Positions 6,975 through 36,928 of a stretch of DNA of 46,785 nt are shown here, piece after piece. Source of the DNA: Dehalococcoidia bacterium (GTDB taxonomy: Bacteria; Chloroflexota; Dehalococcoidia; Bin125); contig JAJEJC010000004.1 in the NCBI GenBank assembly GCA_022828105.1, forward strand, positions 1-46,785. The letters are read 5' to 3'. A model generated the notes under the pieces. The model saw nothing but the letters and a program-made list of their open reading frames with translations. It was not told where the DNA came from and did not search any database. The stretch's first letter is position 1; every line of letters starts with the position of its first letter. Both the position numbers and the translations under genes were made by a program.

Positions 6975-7085
6975 CTCTCACCGAGCGAGAGGGTCAGGGC
7001 AAGGGCCCTTCCCACTGTTCCCATCTCTCCCCCCGCCTCCGGCGGGGGGAGATGCCGAAGGCAGAGGGGGGCACTCCCCAGCCCC
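6975..7085. repeat. Palindromic intergenic repeat, left copy
   Basis: The region 6827-7173 holds no gene. Its middle is a GC-rich palindromic element. It contains a perfect 11-bp stem (7027-7037 with 7041-7051, loop TCC), followed by a 25-base stretch at 7047-7071 that recurs exactly at 35470-35494. Upstream are shorter patterns around CTCTCACCGAGCGAGAGGG. The element looks like a dispersed extragenic palindrome. It could also act as a terminator or mRNA stabiliser, although no T-run follows the stem. Confidence 0.75.
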
Positions 7086-16114: not shown

Positions 16115-17092
16115 TCAGATGGCGAATTCGCCGCTGTCATCTTCGTCCGGCGCGCCCTCGCCAGTCAACAGCGAAGCGAGCGCGTTGAGCTGTTCCTCGT
16201 CATACCAGTGAATCACAATTCGGCCACCGGACTGACCCTTCGCGCTCGAGCGCACTTCCACCCTGGTTCCCAACGCGGACTCCAGCCGCCGAACGGCTTC
16301 GAGCATGGCCGGCGAAGCCGCCCGCGTCGCAGTCTCCCGCTCGGGCTTGGCCATCGAGCGCACCGTGTCTTCCAGTCGACGCACGGTCCAGCTACTCTGC
16401 ATTGCTCGTTGGGCCAGTCCCGCCTGCTCCGTCTCGGGCGCGCCCAGCAGCGCTCGACCGTGACCCTCGCTCAAGTCTCCCGCGGCCAGCATTGACTGGA
16501 TCGCTTCGGGTAAGCGCCGCAGCCGCAGCAGATTGGCGACCGCCGTTCGGCTCTTGCCGATCTCCTGCGCGATCCGCTCCTGTGTCCAACCCGACTGCGC
16601 GAGCCGCTCGAAGGCCGTCGCCATCTCGATCGGATTCAGATCGCTGCGCTGCAGGTTCTCAACCAGCGCGAGCGTGAGCCCCGCCTCATCCTCTTCCAGC
16701 TCCTCCTGGACGACGATGGGAACGGTCTTGAGACCGGCCAGGCTGGCCGCCCGCCAGCGCCGCTCGCCGGCAATCAACTCATAGCCGCCCGAGCGCGTTG
16801 TCCGAACAAGGAGCGGTTGCAACACCCCGTGCTCGCGGATGCTGGCGGCCAGCTCGTCCAGCGCTTCGCGGTCGAACTCCTGCCGCGGCTGCGACGGATT
16901 GCGCGTGATCGACCCGATCGGCGCCTGCAATCGACCGTCACCCGAGCCCTCGTCGGGCGATGAGGGGATCAGCGAGTCCAGGCCCCGGCCGAGACGCCGC
17001 CTGCGTCGATCTTCTTCGCTTTCCGGTGGCGGCGGTCGCGACCCGAAGGTGGTGATCCGCGGCGAATCGGTAGCGGACTCTGACTCGCTCAT
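16115..17092 (-). CDS. parB: Chromosome partition protein ParB
   Basis: ParB is the CTP-dependent clamp that loads at parS and spreads along DNA. The 325-residue product has a disordered N-terminus with the RRRRLGRGLDSLI box that contacts ParA. The CTP-binding GERRWRA is at 109-115 and ENLQRSDLNPIE at 145-156. A helix-turn-helix parS-binding region lies at about 165-195, with a C-terminal dimerisation part after it. Its start overlaps the parA stop (ATGA). Likely targets are the parS sites at 21304 and 21972 in the same cluster. Confidence 0.97.
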   Translation of the reverse strand: MSESESATDSPRITTFGSRPPPPESEEDRRRRRLGRGLDSLIPSSPDEGSGDGRLQAPIGSITRNPSQPRQEFDREALDELAASIREHGVLQPLLVRTTRSGGYELIAGERRWRAASLAGLKTVPIVVQEELEEDEAGLTLALVENLQRSDLNPIEMATAFERLAQSGWTQERIAQEIGKSRTAVANLLRLRRLPEAIQSMLAAGDLSEGHGRALLGAPETEQAGLAQRAMQSSWTVRRLEDTVRSMAKPERETATRAASPAMLEAVRRLESALGTRVEVRSSAKGQSGGRIVIHWYDEEQLNALASLLTGEGAPDEDDSGEFAI

Positions 17093-17895
17093 GCCTGCAC
17101 TCCGTCTACGACGCCGCCTTGGTAGAGCATCGACGGCGGCAGCGCTGCGAGGCGGCGCAACAACTCTCCCGCGAGTTCCCGATACGCCTCGGCGCCCCGC
17201 GATGCCGGGGCATAGTCGATGATCGGTCGCTGATGGCTCGGCGCCTCCGAGAGGCGAATCGAGCGCGGGATAATCGTATCAAACGTCGAACTGATATGCG
17301 ACTTCAACTGTGCAGCGACATCCTGCGACAGCCGTGTGCGACCGTCGTACATCGTCGCGATCACACCCAGAAGATGTAAGCCGGGATGCACATGCGTCTG
17401 CACGCGACGAATGGTCTCCAGCAGCGCCGTCAAGCCCTCGAGGGCCAGATACTCGCACTGCACGGGCGCGATGGCTCCGTCTGCCGCGGCCAGCGCGTTG
17501 AGCGTCATCAGACCCAGCGACGGTCCGCAATCGATCAGGACAAGCTCATACTGAGGCGCTACATCGAGCAGCAAGCTCCGCAACACGTACTCGCGTTCCG
17601 GCCTGGACGCGAGCTCCATCTCCGCCGCCACAAGGTCCATGGATGAGGGCGCAACGTCGAGACCGGGCCAGGAAGTGGCAACGATGCAGTCGCGCAGCGG
17701 AGCCTCGCCCAGCAGTGCGTCGAACATCCTCAGCGAGGCATGTTGCGCGCCCAGCGCGGATGTCGCGTTGGCCTGCGCGTCCGCGTCGATGACCAGGGTG
17801 CGGCGGCCCATCTCGGCGGAGGCGGCGGCCAGGTTGACGGCGGTCGTCGTCTTGCCCACGCCGCCCTTCTGATTCGCGACCGCTACCACGCTCAC
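17089..17895 (-). CDS. parA: Chromosome partition ATPase ParA (Soj)
   Basis: ParA is the Walker-type ATPase that moves ParB-parS complexes over the nucleoid. The 268-residue product has the deviant Walker A KGGVGKTT at 10-17, including the signature first lysine K10. Walker A-prime reads DADAQAN instead of the more usual DxDPQGN, and LIDCGPSLG is the Walker B region. No N-terminal helix-turn-helix is present, as expected of small chromosomal ParA. The GTG start gives MSVVAVANQKGG, which aligns with the family. It follows jag after 66 bases and is coupled to parB. Confidence 0.97.
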   Translation of the reverse strand: MSVVAVANQKGGVGKTTTAVNLAAASAEMGRRTLVIDADAQANATSALGAQHASLRMFDALLGEAPLRDCIVATSWPGLDVAPSSMDLVAAEMELASRPEREYVLRSLLLDVAPQYELVLIDCGPSLGLMTLNALAAADGAIAPVQCEYLALEGLTALLETIRRVQTHVHPGLHLLGVIATMYDGRTRLSQDVAAQLKSHISSTFDTIIPRSIRLSEAPSHQRPIIDYAPASRGAEAYRELAGELLRRLAALPPSMLYQGGVVDGVQA

Positions 17896-17961
17896 GTTTG
17901 CCGGCCTCCGAACGTCGTGTTCCGAGGATAACGGTCAACCCGTTACGTCGGGTAGCCTCGG

Positions 17962-19008
17962 CTACTCGTCACGGTACAGAATCCGCACACGACGCGACGT
18001 GCCCTCGCCGAAGGACTCCGTTCGCAATTCCGGGTCGTCCTGGAGCTGCAAGTGAATGATCCTTCGCTCGGCCGCCGGCATCACGCCGAGGGTGACCGCT
18101 TCGCCATGTTCGCGCACTTCCGTCGCCGCGCGCTGAGCCATCTCCACCAACGCGGTTTCGCGACGCCGCCGGTAGCCGTCGACATCGACCGTGATCGGGT
18201 TGTTGCCGTCCAGGGCGCGGCTCACAATCACATTGACCACATACTGCAACGCCGCCACGTGCGAGCCGTGCCGACCAATCAGCAGGCCGAGATCGTCATC
18301 CCCGGCCGAGGTGACATCGAGCACCGCCACCGCGTGACCCAGCCCGTCCATGGGCGTGGACGGGTCTCGCGCGGTGACCTGTACGTCGAATCCCAACTGT
18401 CGAGCGATGTCGGTCAGCACCTCAACGGCAAATGCGCGGGGGTCGTCGTTCGGCTCGTAGTCGGGGTCGGCGAGCAGCTCGAAGGGGCCAATGGCCGCGC
18501 GCGCGGGCTGCCGCTCCTGGGAGTCGGAACGAGAGCGCGTGCGGCCGCCTCGGCTGCCGCGTCCTCGCCGCTGTTCGTTCCGGCCCTTGCCCGAGGACGC
18601 CGACTGGCGATTGCGAGAACGGGAACGATGGTCGGGCTGCACGTCCTGCTGCGATTCGCCCTGATCTTCTGCGCCGTCCGCCGAGCCTGAGCTCACGGCG
18701 CGGCGAGAGGGGCCACGGCGGCGTCCCGAGCGCGGCCCGCCGCCCGACTCCACCTCCGTCAGATCGGAATAGTCGTCAATCTTGGGCAGCGCCGGCGCCG
18801 ACGGCGCCGCGGAAGGCCGACCGCCGCTGGTTCTCGGGGTCACCCTGACCAGCGACTGGGCGTGTCCGATTCCGAAGATGCCCGTTCGTCCTTCGTCGAG
18901 GACCTCGACATCGACCTGCGCACGCGACAGTCCCAGGCGGCGAAGCGCCGCCTGGACCGCGTCGTCCACGGTCCGTCCGGATTGTTCGATGGGATCGCGT
19001 TTCGTCAT
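17962..19008 (-). CDS. jag: Jag / KhpB RNA-binding protein with RG/RS-rich linker
   Basis: The 348-residue protein has the Jag-N domain (1-58), a long linker (about 60-175) rich in Arg, Ser, Gly and Gln, a KH domain with LIGRHGSHVAAL (GxxG-type loop) and a C-terminal R3H domain with ERRIIHLQL. In Firmicutes, KhpB binds RNA with KhpA and affects cell elongation and division. The gene usually follows yidC, as here. The linker, with stretches such as RRGRGSRGGRTRSRS, is much longer than in common homologues and likely disordered and RNA-binding. No KhpA gene is in this window. Confidence 0.94.
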   Translation of the reverse strand: MTKRDPIEQSGRTVDDAVQAALRRLGLSRAQVDVEVLDEGRTGIFGIGHAQSLVRVTPRTSGGRPSAAPSAPALPKIDDYSDLTEVESGGGPRSGRRRGPSRRAVSSGSADGAEDQGESQQDVQPDHRSRSRNRQSASSGKGRNEQRRGRGSRGGRTRSRSDSQERQPARAAIGPFELLADPDYEPNDDPRAFAVEVLTDIARQLGFDVQVTARDPSTPMDGLGHAVAVLDVTSAGDDDLGLLIGRHGSHVAALQYVVNVIVSRALDGNNPITVDVDGYRRRRETALVEMAQRAATEVREHGEAVTLGVMPAAERRIIHLQLQDDPELRTESFGEGTSRRVRILYRDE

Positions 19009-19101
19009 TGCCGCATCTCCAGCTCAGCCTCGTGTCGCGCGTCAATCGGCGGCCAGCGCTTTGGTTGGTCGCCGTACACGCGCGGTTTCTCCGTTCTTGG
19101 T

Positions 19102-20040
19102 TCAGCGCGAACGGCTTGCGCGCCGTCTTCGCTGTCGACGGCGGCGCGCTGCGCTCGTCTCGCGCCGCGCCGGTCGTTGTGGCTCCGGCTCCGGATCATC
19201 TTCCTCAATCGTCTCGGCGGTGATCTCCACGGCCGCGCCGCCATCGGCCGCGAGCGCAGCTGCCGGCGCCGGCAGAGGCTCCGAGGACAACAGCCACTTC
19301 CACGACCAGCGAAGCCCCTGGCGGTAGAAGTAGTAGTACCAGGACGTGAGGATCGTGAAGACCGAGGTGACCAACCAGTACAGCCCCAGTCCGGCGGGGA
19401 CCTGAAGCGTGAAGAACCCAAACATGAACGGCATCATCCAGAGCATGGTGCGGTTCATCGACTCCGAGCGCTCGTCGCGAGGCCCCATGCGCGCCGTCGA
19501 TACCTTCTGTTGGATGTATGCCGTCGCGCCGACCATCAGCGCCAGCGGCAGCGATTGCTCGAGCGAAGATGAACCCAGGTCCCAGAAGAGGAAGTCTCGA
19601 TTGATTGGGATGGCCGAGGTGATGTAGGCCCAGTCGTACAGGTCGCTCGAGAGCCGCAGCAGCTGTTCGGGCGTGTCGCCCAGCGTCCGTCTCAGTACCT
19701 GGTAGAGCGCGATCCAGATCGGCATCTGGACGAGCAGCGGCCAGAGACAGCCAAGCGGATTGAAGCCCGCCTCGCGGTAGACCTTCATCAGCTCTTCCTG
19801 GCGCCGCCGAGGGTCCTTGTACTTCTTCTGGATCTCCTGCATCCGCGGCTGCATTTCCTGCATCGAGCGAGTCGCCCGCAGCTGCCGCAGCGTCAACGGA
19901 TAGGTGATTACGCGGACGATCAGCGTGAACAGGATGATCGCAACCCCGTAGTTGTCGTCAACCGCATGAGCGATCACGATCAACCCGTTCATGATCGGGC
20001 CGATCAGGATGTCGTTCCAGATGAAGTCGAGAATTTCCAT
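19102..20040 (-). CDS. yidC: Membrane protein insertase YidC/Oxa1
   Basis: YidC inserts and folds inner-membrane proteins, alone or with SecYEG. The 312-residue protein is the short form without the large periplasmic domain. Hydrophobic segments include about 32-52 (with the conserved arginine of the hydrophilic groove, R43, in LIVRVITYPLT), a helical hairpin rich in Met/Gln, and three more segments. The charged tail ends RRRRQRRRRASRSR and may bind ribosomes. It lies between a beta-propeller lipoprotein gene and jag, all minus strand. The first segment may double as a signal anchor. Confidence 0.96.
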   Translation of the reverse strand: MEILDFIWNDILIGPIMNGLIVIAHAVDDNYGVAIILFTLIVRVITYPLTLRQLRATRSMQEMQPRMQEIQKKYKDPRRRQEELMKVYREAGFNPLGCLWPLLVQMPIWIALYQVLRRTLGDTPEQLLRLSSDLYDWAYITSAIPINRDFLFWDLGSSSLEQSLPLALMVGATAYIQQKVSTARMGPRDERSESMNRTMLWMMPFMFGFFTLQVPAGLGLYWLVTSVFTILTSWYYYFYRQGLRWSWKWLLSSEPLPAPAAALAADGGAAVEITAETIEEDDPEPEPQRPARRETSAARRRRQRRRRASRSR

Positions 20041-20060
20041 CGTCGCCTGTCTCTGGGATG

Positions 20061-21320
20061 CTAGTTGGGGGGATACAACCTGACGGCCGAGTTGGCGCCG
20101 AGCAGCACGGCGTAGAGCACGCCGTCCTCGTCGCCGACCAGCACGCGGTCGTCCCGCAGCAGCGCATTGGCCATCAAGTCCTTGGCCTTCTCGAGGCGGA
20201 ACTGGCGAAGCAACGTGCCGTCGGCGGCATTGAGCTGGTGGATCATGCCCCCGCGCGCCACAATCACGAGAATGCCTCCGTCGACCGAATCATCTTCGAA
20301 CTCGACGAACAACGGTTGCGCGCGGATGCGATCATCGGCTGCGAAGGGCTGCAACCAGCGGGGCGCGCCGGTCAGGGCATCGAGCGCGTAGACGTTGCCG
20401 CGCAGGTCGGTCAGGTAGATCACCCCGTCTCGAATCAGCGGCGTGCCCCAGATCCAGTGCGACGCCTCCGCGGTCCAGACCTGCGCGCCGGTCGCGGCGT
20501 CGAGCCCGTAAAGGACTCGGTCGAGTCCGCCGACGTAGACGATGCCCTCGGCCGCGACCACGGAGCCGGCGATGCCGGCCTCGATCACCAGTTGCCATGC
20601 TTCGCTGCCCGCAGCCTCGCCGTCCAGGTGCAAGGCCGTGACCCGACCATCGAGGCCGGCCACGATCAGCAGGCGGCCGCGTTCGGTCTCGACCAGCGCG
20701 GGTCCGCTCCAGATTTGCAGGTCCGAATCGCCGCTCCAGGACCAGAGCGACGCCCCGGGCTGCTCGATGTCCACGGCGTGCACGCGATAGCCGGTATCTG
20801 CCAGGTAGACGGTGGTGCCCTGCACAATCAAATCGGCGACGATCCGAGCCTCGGTCTCGAACACGACCCGGGCCGACTCGCCGTCGCGCTGCACGGCGTA
20901 GAGGACGCCATCGGAATAGCCGGCCAACAGCCATTCGTCCGTCTCGGGCACCCAGATTGGATCGGCGTAGAAGGCGACCGGCTCGATCTCGGCGTCGAGC
21001 CCGGGAAAACGACCGTCATCGTCGGGAAACTGCCAGACGGCGGCGCCGAGGTTGCCGTCGAGCAGTTCAACGGCAACGACCGAACTGTCGCCGGTCGGGG
21101 CGATCAGGCGGGTTTCGGGCTGGACGGGATCGGGCGTCGGGGCGGCCCATCCGTCCGGCTGGTCGGCGACGTCACAGGCCGCGATCAGAGGAATAGCCAG
21201 CAACAACGCTGCGCTTACCAAGATTCGGCGGCGGAGGATTCGCGATCGGTCCCGCAAGGAGCGCAGCGCCCAGAGGCGCGCGAGCGGCCGACGCGACTCA
21301 GGCTGTTTCACGTGAAACAT
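20061..21320 (-). CDS. Beta-propeller (PQQ-like) lipoprotein inserted between yidD and yidC
   Basis: A 419-residue lipoprotein. A basic N-region and a hydrophobic stretch end in IPLIAAC, a good lipobox with the lipidated cysteine at 49. PQQ/WD-like blade repeats follow (VYVGGLDRVLYGLDAATGAQ, VIYLTDLRGNVYALDALTGA, VLVGDEDGVLYAVLLGAN), resembling BamB. ATG at 21320 is chosen because it gives MFHVKQ; an internal TTG would give a more usual signal length. The first codons are the parS site, and the start overlaps the yidD end. Its place in the yidD-yidC row suggests a role in envelope protein insertion or assembly (inference). It might instead be a generic extracytoplasmic propeller. Confidence 0.85.
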   Translation of the reverse strand: MFHVKQPESRRPLARLWALRSLRDRSRILRRRILVSAALLLAIPLIAACDVADQPDGWAAPTPDPVQPETRLIAPTGDSSVVAVELLDGNLGAAVWQFPDDDGRFPGLDAEIEPVAFYADPIWVPETDEWLLAGYSDGVLYAVQRDGESARVVFETEARIVADLIVQGTTVYLADTGYRVHAVDIEQPGASLWSWSGDSDLQIWSGPALVETERGRLLIVAGLDGRVTALHLDGEAAGSEAWQLVIEAGIAGSVVAAEGIVYVGGLDRVLYGLDAATGAQVWTAEASHWIWGTPLIRDGVIYLTDLRGNVYALDALTGAPRWLQPFAADDRIRAQPLFVEFEDDSVDGGILVIVARGGMIHQLNAADGTLLRQFRLEKAKDLMANALLRDDRVLVGDEDGVLYAVLLGANSAVRLYPPN

Positions 21321-21657
21321 CTCGCTCGCGAGGCATCGCCGCATGTCCAGCACGTTCGTTACGCCGCTCGCGCACTCCAGGCGCGGGGTCGTATCCGCCG
21401 GCATTGAGTGGGTTGCAGCGCGCCAGCCGCCACAGCCCCAGACCGATCCCCATCAGCACACCGCGGGCTCGCACGGCGTCGATCATGTATTGGGAACAGG
21501 ACGGCTCAAACCGGCATTGCGAGCCCATCGCACTCATCAGCGGCGACAACGCTCGCTGATAGCCGAGCAGCAGCACGATCACCGCGCGGTTGGTCGCTCG
21601 CGCCGGTCCTCGCGGGGGCGCGATCCATCGGCGCGTGGCTTCGGTTGACGTCAACAC
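21298..21657 (-). CDS. yidD: Membrane protein insertion efficiency factor YidD
   Basis: YidD is a small membrane-associated protein that assists YidC-dependent insertion. The 119-residue product has the diagnostic core YQRALSPLM, CRFEPSCSQYMIDAV and GLWRLARCNP, with the conserved cysteines. It is longer than the 70-90 residues of most homologues. The extra C-terminal ~30 residues (RERRNERAG to VSRETA) run through the parS site at 21304-21319. The GTG start overlaps the rnpA stop (GTGTTGA). Gene order rnpA-yidD matches the common origin cluster. Confidence 0.95.
   Translation of the reverse strand: MLTSTEATRRWIAPPRGPARATNRAVIVLLLGYQRALSPLMSAMGSQCRFEPSCSQYMIDAVRARGVLMGIGLGLWRLARCNPLNAGGYDPAPGVRERRNERAGHAAMPRERDVSRETA
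21304..21319. promoter_or_regulatory. parS site (perfect consensus)
   Basis: The 16-bp palindrome TGTTTCACGTGAAACA is identical to the bacterial chromosomal parS consensus bound by ParB. It lies inside the overlap of the yidD end and the lipoprotein start, and is read as VSRET in one frame and FHVKQ in the other. parA and parB are about 4 kb away in the same cluster, consistent with an origin-proximal partition site. Confidence 0.95.
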
Positions 21658-22145
21658 TCACCTCGCGACCCATGGAGATCGGACATTGCACCCTCCGGCG
21701 AGGCGTCCTCCGTACCGTGCAACTGCCGCATCAAGCGGCGCACCAGACTTGATAGCGTCGAGTCCAACTTGTCGTAATCGGCCGCCGCCGCTCCTTGCCG
21801 CGCGACCACCACCACATCGAGACCCCGGCAGTCGCCCTCTCGATTCAACCGATCCGCCGATGACCGCAGCCGTCGCCGAATCCGGTTTCTCACGACCGCG
21901 CCGCCCAGACGCGAACTGATCGCGAATCCGAACCGGCATGGAGCATCGGCCGGCGATTGCCCGACATTAGTTGTTTCACGTGAAACGTCCGGCTCCTGTG
22001 TGTCCGCCACGGCGACGCGCGACCTCGCCCGCACGGCGAGCACGCCGGCGGAACTCCTCACGCTCTCGCGGAACACGGCGTCAAAGTCCGACTTGCGCCG
22101 CAGCCGCTGCTCCGTGCGCTTGACGGTCGGCCTGGTCGGCTGCAT
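21651..22145 (-). CDS. rnpA: Ribonuclease P protein component
   Basis: RnpA is the protein subunit of RNase P, which trims tRNA 5' ends. With the start MQPTRPTVKR the product has 164 residues, and LRRKSDFDAVFRES aligns with the family N-terminus. The RNR signature is RNRIRRRLR at 86-94. A loop of about 20 extra residues (roughly 48-68) interrupts the normal fold and contains VSRET, which is a parS site read in frame. The reading frame stays open upstream into rpmH, so a longer N-terminal form (up to ATG at 22331) cannot be excluded; an analogous rnpA extension exists in Thermus. Confidence 0.93.
   Translation of the reverse strand: MQPTRPTVKRTEQRLRRKSDFDAVFRESVRSSAGVLAVRARSRVAVADTQEPDVSRETTNVGQSPADAPCRFGFAISSRLGGAVVRNRIRRRLRSSADRLNREGDCRGLDVVVVARQGAAAADYDKLDSTLSSLVRRLMRQLHGTEDASPEGAMSDLHGSRGEC
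21972..21987. promoter_or_regulatory. parS-like site (one mismatch) in rnpA
   Basis: TGTTTCACGTGAAACG matches 15 of 16 positions of the parS consensus, with the last base changed. It lies within the rnpA coding region, in a loop insertion of the protein, about 670 bases from the perfect site. The core TTTCACGTGAAA is intact, so ParB binding is likely. Confidence 0.88.
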
Positions 22146-22269
22146 TGACGGCGGCTGATTGCTCTGCATGCTGGTCGGCACGCCCTGATCGATCCGGTTG
22201 ACCGCTCGCGCAATCGCTGACGCGCCAGGCGAGCGGCCTGACATGGAGTCCAAACGACACATCCGAGAC

Positions 22270-22410
22270 TCAGACGACCGTAAGTCGCCTTCGGCCGCGC
22301 GATCGGCGGCGTTTGAGCACCGCCCGGCCACCGCGGCTTGACATTCGCTTCAGGAATCCATGCTCCCGCTTGCGCGGAATTCGTTTCGGTTGATACGTGC
22401 GTTTCGGCAT
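22270..22410 (-). CDS. rpmH: Ribosomal protein L34
   Basis: A 46-residue basic protein beginning [20 protein letters not shown] and ending [12 protein letters not shown], which matches L34 along its whole length ([19 protein letters not shown] is the family core). L34 sits in the large ribosomal subunit. It is the first gene of the rpmH-rnpA-yidD-yidC cluster, with rnpA starting about 124 bases downstream. It was found by translating the intergenic stretch on the minus strand. Confidence 0.96.
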
Positions 22411-33091: not shown

Positions 33092-33754
33092 ATGTTCCGT
33101 TTGACCGTCTCGACGCTTGACGATGACTTCGTCCCGCCGATTCAGCCGGCGTTGGAGCGCGCCGGTCTCCAGGTGGTTCGATTCGCACCGGCCGAGGGTG
33201 TCGAACCCGATCCCGCAGCCGCTCCCGACGTCCTGTTGCTGGACTGGCGGGCAACGCTGCCAATCGCCAGGCCTGCGGAAGTCCTGGCCTGGCCCGATGC
33301 GATGCGCCTCGCCGCGCTGAGACCGTCGGACACCGGTCTCCTGGGACCGACGCACGAACTGGATGACTTTGTACTGGCTCCCGTCCACGACGAGGAGCTG
33401 GTGGCGCGGGTGCAACTGGTGCTCTGGCGTCACGGACGGGCGCTCACGCGCAATACGCTCGAGGCAGGCGAGTTGGTCGTCGATACCTCGAACTACCAGG
33501 TCTTCGAGGGAGGGCGGTCGGTCTCGCTGACCTTCAAGGAGTTCGAACTGCTGCGCTTCCTGATGACGCACAACCAGCAGGTGTTTACCCGCGAAACGCT
33601 GCTCAATCGGGTCTGGGGATACAACTACTACGGCGGCTCGCGCACGGTCGATGTACACATCCGCCGGCTTCGCTCGAAGCTTGAGGCGGGCGGGCAGCGT
33701 TACGTCGAGACGGTCCGCAATGTGGGCTACCGATTCGCACTGCCGCTGCGCTGA
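33092..33754 (+). CDS. GlnR-like OmpR-family regulator with atypical receiver
   Basis: A 220-residue regulator with a receiver-like N-terminus and a winged-helix DNA-binding domain (about 120-220; LTFKEFELLRFLMTHNQQVFTRETLLNRVWG, then SRTVDVHIRRLRSKLE). An Asp is kept in DVLLLDWR (D51), but the conserved lysine of the usual KP motif is Ala (LAPVHDEEL). The receiver therefore resembles GlnR, which acts without normal phosphorylation (established for actinobacterial GlnR). It stands about 220 bases upstream of glnA on the same strand, with a GTAAC direct repeat between them. A nitrogen-control role is inferred from that context. ATG at 33092 is preferred over the earlier ATG at 33074 for alignment to the family. 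Confidence 0.85.
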   Translation: MFRLTVSTLDDDFVPPIQPALERAGLQVVRFAPAEGVEPDPAAAPDVLLLDWRATLPIARPAEVLAWPDAMRLAALRPSDTGLLGPTHELDDFVLAPVHDEELVARVQLVLWRHGRALTRNTLEAGELVVDTSNYQVFEGGRSVSLTFKEFELLRFLMTHNQQVFTRETLLNRVWGYNYYGGSRTVDVHIRRLRSKLEAGGQRYVETVRNVGYRFALPLR

Positions 33755-33815
33755 TCCTGTTCGGTTTCGATAAGTCGGCTACAGAACTTGAGCGGAAGGC
33801 GCGAGCCGGCAGTGC

Positions 33816-33831
33816 GTAACTCAGGTGTAAC
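33816..33831 (+). promoter_or_regulatory. Putative GlnR-type box upstream of glnA
   Basis: GTAAC-TCAGGT-GTAAC is a direct repeat with an 11-base period, about 145 bases upstream of the glnA start. Half-sites of this form and spacing (GTnAC-n6-GnnAC) are bound by actinobacterial GlnR. A third, imperfect half-site (GAAC) begins at 33838, seven bases after the second. The regulator encoded just upstream is the obvious candidate to bind here. This is sequence-based inference only. Confidence 0.5.
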
Positions 33832-33976
33832 CCAAGAGAACGGGACCAGCCCAGCCCTGGCCATAGGATGATTCCCAGCATTCATTGACGCTGCGCGGCA
33901 GGCGGCATGCCTGCGTGAGAGACCAACCGGCCCCGTTCCCCGCGCAACACGAAGACAGATTGAGAGGCACAGGCCC

Positions 33977-35395
33977 ATGGCAACCCTTGGCGACATCCAG
34001 GCGCTGATCCAGGATCAGGGCATTCGCCGCGTCGACTTGTTGGTGACCGACCTGATCGGCCGCTGGCAGCATTTCAGCATCCCGGCGTCGAAAGTCGACG
34101 AGGACCTGGTCAACCGTGGCCAGGGTTTCGACGGCTCCTCGCTGCGCGGTTTCCAGAGCATTGACGAGTCGGACATGCTGCTCCGACCCGACCTCGACTC
34201 CGCGCGGATCGACCCGACCGAAAACGTGCCGACGTTGAAGTTCATCTGCGACGTACACGACCCGGTCACCGGCGATCGCTACAGCCGCGACCCGCGGTAC
34301 GTCGCGACCAAGGCCGAGCAGTACCTGGTCGACTCGGGAATCGCCGACCAGGCCTTCTTCGGCCCGGAACTCGAGTTCTTCCTCTTCGACCACGTGCAGT
34401 TCCAGATGTCGATCAACCAGGCCTTCTACGTGGTCGAATCGGACGAAGCCGACTGGAACAGCGGCCGCGACGAAGAGGAGAACAACCTGGGCTACAAGAT
34501 CCCGCCCAAGCAGGGTTACTCGCCGACCGCCCCGTTCGACACGCTCAGCGACATCCGCTGGGAGATGGCCGACGCAATGGAAGCGGTCGGGATGGAGCTG
34601 GAAGTCCACCACCACGAGGTCGCGACCGGCGGCCAGGGTGAGATCGCCACGCGCTTCAACACGCTGCGCACCAAGGCGGACGAGACGCAGTGGTACAAGC
34701 ACATCGTGCGCAACGTGGCCAAGGCCAACGGCAAGTCGGCGACGTTCATGCCGAAGCCGCTCTACGGCGACAACGGGACGGGCATGCACTGCCACCAGTC
34801 GCTGTGGAAGGACGGCTCACCGCTGTTCTACGAGGCAGGGCGATATGCCGAGCTCTCGGACACGGCCCGCCACTACATCGGCGGCCTGCTCAAGCACGGC
34901 TCGGCGCTGCTCGCCTTCTGCGCGCCGACGACCAACTCCTACAAGCGGCTGGTGCCGGGCTTCGAAGCGCCGATCTACCTCGCCTTCTCGCAGCGCAACC
35001 GCTCGGCGGCGGTTCGCATTCCGACATACGAGACTTCGCCGAACAGCAAGCGGATCGAGTTCCGCCCGCCCGACGCCTCGGCCAACACCTACCTGGCCTT
35101 CTCGGCGATGTTGATGGCCGGCCTCGACGGGATCCGCAACCGGATCGAGCCGGACGACCCGGTCGACACGGACATCTATGAGTTGAGCGCCGAAGAGGCC
35201 GCGGGCATCCCGTCTGTGCCGCATTCGCTGGAGGGCTCGCTGCAGGCGCTGGCCGAGGACCACGACTTCCTGATGGAGGGCGGAGTCTTCACCCAGGACT
35301 TGATCGACGAGTACCAGGACTTCAAGCTGACCGAGGCGCGGGACGTGTTCATGCACCCGGTCGCGGCGGAGTTCTTCCACTACTACCACATCTAG
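33977..35395 (+). CDS. glnA: Glutamine synthetase, type I (adenylylatable-type length)
   Basis: GlnA makes glutamine from glutamate, ammonia and ATP as a dodecamer. The 472-residue product has FDGSSLRGFQ, the metal ligands in GPELEFFLF, HHHEVATGGQGEI and GMHCHQS, the flap Glu in NSYKRLVPGFEAP, and RIEFRPPD with the catalytic Arg. Length and the DIYELSAEEAAGIP segment correspond to type I-beta enzymes, where the Tyr (here Y401) can be adenylylated. No adenylyltransferase gene is in the window, so regulation by adenylylation is only possible. A GTAAC direct repeat upstream suggests control by the adjacent regulator. Confidence 0.97.
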   Translation: MATLGDIQALIQDQGIRRVDLLVTDLIGRWQHFSIPASKVDEDLVNRGQGFDGSSLRGFQSIDESDMLLRPDLDSARIDPTENVPTLKFICDVHDPVTGDRYSRDPRYVATKAEQYLVDSGIADQAFFGPELEFFLFDHVQFQMSINQAFYVVESDEADWNSGRDEEENNLGYKIPPKQGYSPTAPFDTLSDIRWEMADAMEAVGMELEVHHHEVATGGQGEIATRFNTLRTKADETQWYKHIVRNVAKANGKSATFMPKPLYGDNGTGMHCHQSLWKDGSPLFYEAGRYAELSDTARHYIGGLLKHGSALLAFCAPTTNSYKRLVPGFEAPIYLAFSQRNRSAAVRIPTYETSPNSKRIEFRPPDASANTYLAFSAMLMAGLDGIRNRIEPDDPVDTDIYELSAEEAAGIPSVPHSLEGSLQALAEDHDFLMEGGVFTQDLIDEYQDFKLTEARDVFMHPVAAEFFHYYHI

Positions 35396-35403
35396 CAACG
35401 GGG

Positions 35404-35562
35404 TTCCCTCTCACCCCGCTTCGCGGGGGGAGATGTCGAAGCAATTGCGCTCTCCCCTCGCGGAGCGGTGGGAGATGCCGAAGGCAGAGGGGGGTCCGTC
35501 GACTAGCGCGGAAGCCCCCCCTTCACCCGCTACGCGGGAGCTTCCCCCAGAGGGGGGAAGCG
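35404..35562. repeat. Palindromic intergenic repeat, right copy
   Basis: The 183 bases between the two glutamine synthetase genes are filled with GC-rich palindromes. They are CCCCGC-TTC-GCGGGG near 35414, the stretch at 35470-35494 that repeats 25 bases of the left copy exactly, CCCGC-TAC-GCGGG near 35526, and a perfect 8-bp stem CTTCCCCC/GGGGGAAG with AGAG loop at 35541-35560. A shorter variant of the shared motif is near 35429. Such nested hairpins fit a dispersed repeat element; they could also tune the amount of glnA2 mRNA. Confidence 0.75.
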
Positions 35563-35578
35563 AAAGTTCACCATCGCC

Positions 35579-36928
35579 ATGACCAGCCTCGACACAGACC
35601 CGAATGCTCCGCCCAGTGAGCATCAGCATGTGCTGAACGCTTGCCGCGAGCATGACGTGCGGTTTGTGCGCCTGTGGTTCACGGACCTGCTGGGACAGCT
35701 CAAGTCGGTCGCGATCACGATCGACGAGCTGCCGGCGGCGCTGGAGAAGGGCGTCGAGTTCGACGGCGCGTCGATCGAGGGGTTCGCTCGGCACGACGAG
35801 TCGGACATGGTGGCGATCCCGGATCCGGACACGTTCGTTGTGTTGCCCTGGCGGCCGCAACAGCATCGCGTGGCGCGGTTGATCTGCGACATTCACCGGC
35901 GCAACGGCGAGCCGTTCGAGGGCGATCCGCGGCGCGTGCTGCGACGCCAGCTCGAGTCGGCCCAGCAGCGCGGCTACACCTTCTACGTCGCGCCGCAGAT
36001 CGAGTACTTCTACTTCCGCGCGCCCGACGATCCGTCGCCACTGGACTCGGGCGGCTACTTCGACCTCTCCCCGCTCGACACCGCGACCGACCTGCGCCGC
36101 GAGACCGTGTTGACCCTGGAAGAGATGGGCATCGGAGTCGAATCGTCGCACCACGAGGCAGCGCCGTCCCAGCACGAGATCGACCTGCGCTATACCGATG
36201 CGCTGACGATGGCCGACCAGGTCATGACGACTCGGCTGGTGGTCAAGGAAGTCGCGATCAAGCAGGGCGTCCATGCGACATTCATGCCCAAGCCGCTCAA
36301 CGGCGTCAACGGGTCGGGCATGCACGTCTACCTCTCGCTGTTCGACCACGAGCAGAACCTGTTCTACGAGGAAGGCGGCGGACTGTCGGAGATCGCTCGC
36401 GCGTTCCTTGCCGGTCTGCTCGCCTACACGCCGCAGTTCACCCTGATCGCCAACCAGTGGTCGAACAGCTACAAGCGGCTCGCGCCCGGCACCGAGGCGC
36501 CCGTCTACCTGACCTGGTCACACGCCAACCAGTCGGACCTGGTGCGAATCCCGGATTATGAGCCCGGCGATTCCGAGTCGACGCGGCTGGAGTACCGCGG
36601 CGCCGACTCGGCAACGAACCCGTACCTCGCGTTCTCGGCGTTCCTGGCGGCCGGACTGCGCGGAATCGACGAGGGATTAGTCCCGCCTCCGGCGGCGGAA
36701 GACAACGTCTTTGAGCTGACTCCCGCCCAGCGGGAAGCGCGGAACATCGTCGAGATGCCGACGACCCAGGGTCGCGCAATCGAAGCATTCTCGGAGTCCG
36801 AGCTGATGAAGAGTGTGTTGGGCGAGTACGTCTGGTCGACGGTGCTGCAAAACAAGCGCCTCGAGTGGGACGAATACCGCTCGCAGGTCACCGACTACGA
36901 GCTGCGTCGCTATCTGGCCGTGCTCTAG
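35579..36928 (+). CDS. Second glutamine synthetase-like protein (GlnA2 / type I-alpha) with E-to-Q change
   Basis: A 449-residue type I-alpha protein, closest by eye to actinobacterial GlnA2 (GYFDLSPLDTATDLRRETV, HHEAAPSQHEIDLR, AEDNVFELTPAQR). It lacks the adenylylation segment of the first copy. It keeps FDGASIEGF, the Glu residues in HHEAAPSQHEID, GMHVYLSLF, NSYKRLAPGTEAP and RLEYRGAD. The first of the two metal-binding glutamates in the PExEF motif is Gln (APQIEYFYF, Q140), so the second metal site may be altered. It could be a glutamine synthetase, a gamma-glutamylpolyamine synthetase-type enzyme or a regulatory paralogue. No clear Shine-Dalgarno is seen; repeats fill the upstream gap. 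Confidence 0.9.
   Translation: MTSLDTDPNAPPSEHQHVLNACREHDVRFVRLWFTDLLGQLKSVAITIDELPAALEKGVEFDGASIEGFARHDESDMVAIPDPDTFVVLPWRPQQHRVARLICDIHRRNGEPFEGDPRRVLRRQLESAQQRGYTFYVAPQIEYFYFRAPDDPSPLDSGGYFDLSPLDTATDLRRETVLTLEEMGIGVESSHHEAAPSQHEIDLRYTDALTMADQVMTTRLVVKEVAIKQGVHATFMPKPLNGVNGSGMHVYLSLFDHEQNLFYEEGGGLSEIARAFLAGLLAYTPQFTLIANQWSNSYKRLAPGTEAPVYLTWSHANQSDLVRIPDYEPGDSESTRLEYRGADSATNPYLAFSAFLAAGLRGIDEGLVPPPAAEDNVFELTPAQREARNIVEMPTTQGRAIEAFSESELMKSVLGEYVWSTVLQNKRLEWDEYRSQVTDYELRRYLAVL

Follow-up and report, generated by a model that had tools for sequence, protein, structure and literature searches.

The window analysed here, a 46,785-nt stretch of DNA, belongs to a 2.74-Mb genome of the class Dehalococcoidia (Chloroflexota) in ten contigs. 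It carries an OmpR-type regulator gene with a GYD-domain gene and a tRNA-Thr gene on its 5′ side and, across a 222-bp spacer, glnA and a second glutamine synthetase-like gene on its 3′ side (Table 1). The earlier note had placed the regulator upstream of two glutamine synthetases, with a GTAAC-n6-GTAAC repeat between regulator and glnA; both the gene order and the coordinates hold. We consider 33092 a likelier start for the regulator than 33074, as conservation among homologues begins at the residue encoded at 33092 (MFRLT...). A Pfam scan of 33 window proteins, which cover the ORFs apart from some shorter ones, found no histidine kinase, in agreement with the earlier reading that a partner kinase is absent from the window.

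Table 1. Features of the regulator-glnA locus, in window positions
Feature	Position	Strand	Evidence or remark
GlnR-type orphan OmpR-family regulator	33092..33754	+	Pfam Trans_reg_C only; PDB matches; tree; Asp57-x-Arg59; alternative start 33074
GlnR-type box GTAACTCAGGTGTAAC, two GTAAC half-sites and 6-bp spacer	33816..33831	+	Uniqueness in the genome; conservation before glnA
Probable -10 element TAGGAT of the glnA promoter	33864..33869	+	Conserved CATA[G/C]GATG at a fixed distance from the box
glnA, type I glutamine synthetase, predicted target	33977..35395	+	Pfam Gln-synt_C/N; NCBIfam TIGR00653, 625 bits, above cut-off
Second glutamine synthetase-like gene, 3′ of glnA	35579..36928	+	Pfam Gln-synt_C/N; TIGR00653, 443 bits, just above cut-off

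The second glutamine synthetase-like gene remains adjacent to glnA in relatives, and no GlnR-type box was seen in the gap between the two. The same gap holds a copy (35472-35490) of an interspersed element with CCTCTGCCTTCGGCATCTC, which is also present at 7049-7067 in the window; the 2.74-Mb genome has 99 copies at one mismatch or fewer, most of them exact, and 0 of the reversed control. Some 11 kb away from glnA, at 16118-22331, parB, jag, yidC and rnpA are grouped, as is usual in the neighbourhood of a replication origin.

In the 220-residue regulator, Pfam detected Trans_reg_C and did not detect a receiver domain. The β5 position reads DDFVLAPVHDEEL where canonical paralogues have KPF, so the receiver lysine is indeed missing, as first noticed, and of the residues that define a canonical receiver (acidic pair, Asp and Lys) the acidic pair is gone as well. 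Alignment shows the acidic pocket and β5 lysine to be lost in all 15 window-clade members. The same 15 carry Asp57-Trp-Arg59 at the phosphorylation site. The Asp-x-Arg pattern is shared by the homologue L121 and by the GlnR rows, which came from PDB alignments without the N-terminus and so do not extend to Thr-9, a conserved GlnR residue in contact with Asp-50. GlnR has Asp50 and Arg52 and no phosphorylation pocket (PMC10704036). Many Dehalococcoidaceae homologues retain the β5 lysine (KPF-like) or differ in their receiver, and phosphorylation-independence is therefore clear for the window clade only.

The best PDB sequence matches were the GlnR chains 8hig (127 bits) and 8hih (124 bits), from Saccharopolyspora erythraea and M. 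tuberculosis according to the PDB titles, with RegX3 (96 bits), PhoB and MtrA behind. Over its whole length the protein is approximately 33% identical to GlnR, and its DNA-binding domain is 51% identical. With the NCBIfam MtrA model the score is 113 bits, below the cut-off of 300. The recognition-helix residues RTVDVH(I/V)RRLR are common to PhoB and are thus no proof of specificity. A structure model (pLDDT 88, pTM 0.60) was dropped as a discriminator, as it fits any OmpR/PhoB regulator.

Phylogeny had been set beforehand as a refuting test, and in it the regulator groups with GlnR and with no other OmpR family. A single clade with support of 100/100 (IQ-TREE, site-mixture model, 220 columns) unites the window clade with other Dehalococcoidia homologues and two GlnR sequences; it excludes RegX3, MtrA, PhoP, PrrA, KdpE, the paralogues encoded in the same genome and the best matches of other Chloroflexota classes. 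The DNA-binding domain alone, with PhoB added, returns the same GlnR clade (97/95). MtrA pairs with RegX3 outside this clade, so the regulator is not grouped with MtrA. Within the clade, GlnR groups with the window clade and L121 (97/92). In the AU test, a grouping of the window clade with RegX3 is rejected (p 0.008), and that of GlnR with MtrA gives p 0.057. The same test does not reject a Dehalococcoidia clade from which GlnR is left out (p 0.12), and common ancestry and transfer are thus both compatible with the tree. The sampling comprises only two actinobacterial GlnR sequences and no GlnRII sequence, and the branches of GlnR and the window clade are long (1.2 and 1.0 changes per column). 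The best reading of these alignments and trees is that the regulator is a GlnR orthologue, or of one origin with GlnR.

The box, 145 bp 5′ of the glnA ATG, is the sole exact GTAAC-n6-GTAAC in the genome. By count it is unremarkable, because 0.21 occurrences are expected by chance per 47 kb at one mismatch or fewer and its reversed control turns up just as often (4 occurrences in the genome). Exact matches number about one per genome among relatives, which is not above chance, and genome-wide counts of GTAAC-n6-GTAAC or GNAACTCNNGTGNAAC at one mismatch show no excess over reversed controls. We therefore used position and conservation as evidence instead.

By these measures the box stands out. 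The exact site lies 5′ of glnA in 14 of the 15 related genomes that carry the regulator, with TCAGGT as the n6 (TCAGCT in two), and it is retained with the regulator next to glnA, divergent from it or at another place. No other 16-bp stretch of the spacer is as well conserved (conservation 0.99 versus 0.68 for the remainder). The distance from the box to the TA[G/C]GAT -10 element is 32 bp in 14/14 genomes, and that to the ATG varies from 122 to 183 bp; there is no -35-like element at the usual distance from the glnA -10. Presence in 14 of 15 genomes, conservation above the surrounding spacer and the fixed distance to the -10 show that the glnA box is not a chance match. As caveats, box scores were defined after some sites had been seen, and the related genomes do not count as independent cases. 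Of the relatives with a clear orthologue, the most divergent (L015, 68%) lacks an intact glnA box and has only three of six amtB half-sites. In that genome (G214; L015, L101), the orthologue occurs together with a degenerate glnA site, GTAACTCGCTTACAG, which suggests that site and protein drift together or that the regulon is relaxed.

A second candidate target lies elsewhere in the window genome (G000:C4:397699 on), where the amtB-A operon consists of amtB followed by a PII gene. Upstream of it are six half-sites of the form GNNAY at exact 11-bp spacing (GACAT-GAAAT-GCAAT-GACAT-GCAAC-GAAAC), and this array ends 21 bp 5′ of a TAGGTT -10. Actinobacterial amtB has three GlnR boxes, and the A at position 4 of each half-site is irreplaceable (PMC10704036); this A is present in all six amtB-A half-sites. 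Among 12 genomes including the window genome, in-phase coding-strand amtB half-sites number six of six in nine, five in two and three in one, whereas shuffles have at most four. A whole-genome search for five half-sites in phase finds only the amtB-A promoter in the window genome, and over 15 genomes it gives few other matches, mostly tandem repeats. The distances to the -10, 21 bp at amtB and 32 bp at glnA, differ by one 11-bp unit, as would be expected for a protein held to one side of the double helix. The second amtB operon (amtB-B and a glnK gene; the genome's own copy is L138) has no clear box. On the 5′ side of this amtB-glnK operon (L106-L120 and L138), GAATTCAT..GTAACCAGT is conserved, with ACTGGTnCnGCGGAC approximately 45 bp later; these look like widely spaced inverted half-sites, not a GlnR box.

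The association extends to other families of the class. At 14 of 17 fetched Dehalococcoidia loci the best homologue (approximately 30-44% identity) has amtB-PII genes in its vicinity, in many cases with glutamine synthetase genes after them. Upstream regions at the 14 other Dehalococcoidia loci contain boxes scoring 8 or more in 19 of 50 cases, compared to 0.66 in shuffles, and by gene these fall at amtB (15/19) and synthetase genes (4/14) and at none of the operon-internal PII genes (0/17). In other Chloroflexota classes, no boxes were found 5′ of amtB (0/21). In G106 and G074, where the regulator is unlinked, amtB or a synthetase gene still has boxes on its 5′ side. Each family f2 genome in the set has 19-38 reductive dehalogenase matches, from which we take this family to be Dehalococcoides/Dehalogenimonas-like.

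One of the f2 genomes (G048), which resembles Dehalococcoides mccartyi 195, encodes a second GlnR-like regulator with 35% identity to the window protein (L180:9742-10503, minus strand). This gene directly heads an apparent modABC-nifH-nifI1-nifI2-nifDK cluster, whose genes were named by eye, and a GTAACACGGCTGTAAT site lies just 5′ of it on the opposite strand. In a review of bioremediation genomics (PMC3462421), the markers of nitrogen status named for D. mccartyi 195 are amtB, PII and nif genes, with Lee et al. 2012 as the source for amtB and PII; this fits the observations made here.

The nitrogen-control unit proposed in the earlier note is supported, as far as sequence can tell. Neither of the refuting outcomes named there came about, since the regulator groups with GlnR and nearly all relatives have the box 5′ of glnA. 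Two refinements apply. Because the glnA box stays where the regulator is elsewhere, and because a separate amtB-PII locus has the six-half-site array, the arrangement is better described as a regulon than as a linked cassette, and it reaches other families of the class.

We considered whether the box is real but read by an MtrA- or PhoP/RegX3-like paralogue, with the orphan regulator controlling something else. MtrA competes with GlnR at Streptomyces nitrogen genes (PMC10704036), 11-bp direct repeats are common in the OmpR family, and the genome encodes five other Trans_reg_C proteins, at least three with canonical receivers. However, the boxes co-occur with GlnR-like homologues and are missing from the amtB genes inspected in other Chloroflexota classes despite many canonical OmpR regulators there, and a GlnR-like gene is linked to amtB or glnA in most inspected Dehalococcoidia loci. 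We thus regard a paralogue as an unlikely reader of the box. An ordinary two-component response regulator that controls glnA by phosphorylation from an unlinked kinase seems very improbable: Asp57 is kept and Dehalococcoidaceae homologues have a KPF-like lysine, yet Pfam recognises no receiver, the acidic pocket and β5 lysine are gone throughout the window clade and the scanned window proteins include no kinase.

It is harder still to credit that box and adjacency arose by chance, or were inherited by close relatives without function. A single repeat per genome is what chance would give and the 14 relatives share ancestry to an extent that makes them non-independent, but the near-invariance of the box in an otherwise diverged spacer, its constant spacing from the -10, the phased array that in this genome is confined to amtB and the boxes in other families of the class, whose regulators are about 30-44% identical, all speak against this explanation.

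We consider it highly probable that the regulator is a phosphorylation-independent GlnR that activates glnA and amtB-PII under nitrogen limitation, as part of a class-wide regulon outside Actinomycetota. We infer that the regulator binds the boxes, that binding activates transcription and that nitrogen limitation is the signal. In the proposed mechanism, this orphan OmpR-family activator would dimerise constitutively through its degenerate receivers, with no need for phosphorylation, and its winged-helix domains would occupy, in head-to-tail order, GTAAC-type half-sites whose 11-bp spacing puts them on the same side of the helix. The activator would thereby sit just 5′ of promoters with a TANNNT -10 and no clear -35, where it may recruit RNA polymerase. 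The glnA target would be one box of two half-sites, and the amtB-PII operon elsewhere would present three boxes in phase. Both would be activated when nitrogen is short, with nitrogen status presumably sensed by a route that is invisible in sequence. For actinobacterial GlnR, acetylation and Ser/Thr phosphorylation have been reported (PMC10704036).

The regulator resembles GlnR of Actinomycetota (Streptomyces, Mycobacterium, Amycolatopsis, Saccharopolyspora) in being an orphan OmpR-type protein with an Asp-x-Arg receiver that lacks the phosphorylation pocket. GlnR has been described as the nitrogen master regulator of actinomycetes. The two also share one clade, boxes at glnA and amtB (three at amtB), and the form of the site, 5+6+5 direct repeats with a 6-bp spacer and A at position 4 (consensus from PMC10704036). 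Unlike the actinobacterial system, this one is in another phylum, its gene is usually linked to glnA or amtB, its glnA has one box and its regulon comprises, as far as could be seen, only glnA and amtB-PII. The Streptomyces protein GlnRII is likewise an orphan with a GlnR-like DNA-binding domain and overlapping targets (PMC10704036); GlnRII and GlnR differ in the recognition helix at Arg195/Ala199, where we read Arg and Ser in the aligned window protein. MtrA, PhoP and PhoB/RegX3 share the winged-helix fold and 11-bp direct-repeat sites, and the PhoB recognition helix is similar, but these proteins have canonical phosphorylated receivers and partner kinases, and the trees place them outside the GlnR clade. 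Nitrogen assimilation genes are also controlled by GlnR of Bacilli (MerR family), AmtR and NtcA; these belong to unrelated protein families with unrelated sites, and the Bacilli protein shares only the name.

The earlier note had remarked that regulator and box together would be notable outside an actinobacterial context, and the Chloroflexota setting is such a case. The literature searched, a limited set, held no description of a class-wide GlnR regulon in Chloroflexota, and GlnR paired with Chloroflexi, Chloroflexota or Dehalococcoides gave incidental matches only. Within that literature, the GlnR-type regulator is a known kind, whereas the class-wide Chloroflexota regulon appears to be new and in an unexpected phylum.

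On balance we favor, with some reservation, the broader view that GlnR-type control is an old system common to Actinomycetota and Dehalococcoidia, which would run glnA and amtB-PII across the class, Dehalococcoides-like genomes included, with a duplicate that heads mod-nif in the D. mccartyi 195-like genome. That a second phylum has the protein along with its sites and target genes would date or relocate the origin of GlnR. The natural receiver variants may separate dimerisation from phosphorylation. For the Dehalococcoidia, which comprise organohalide respirers and uncultured marine and sponge lineages, the finding provides a testable nitrogen regulator, and GlnR-type control would offer a reason for the response of amtB and PII to nitrogen status in D. 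mccartyi.
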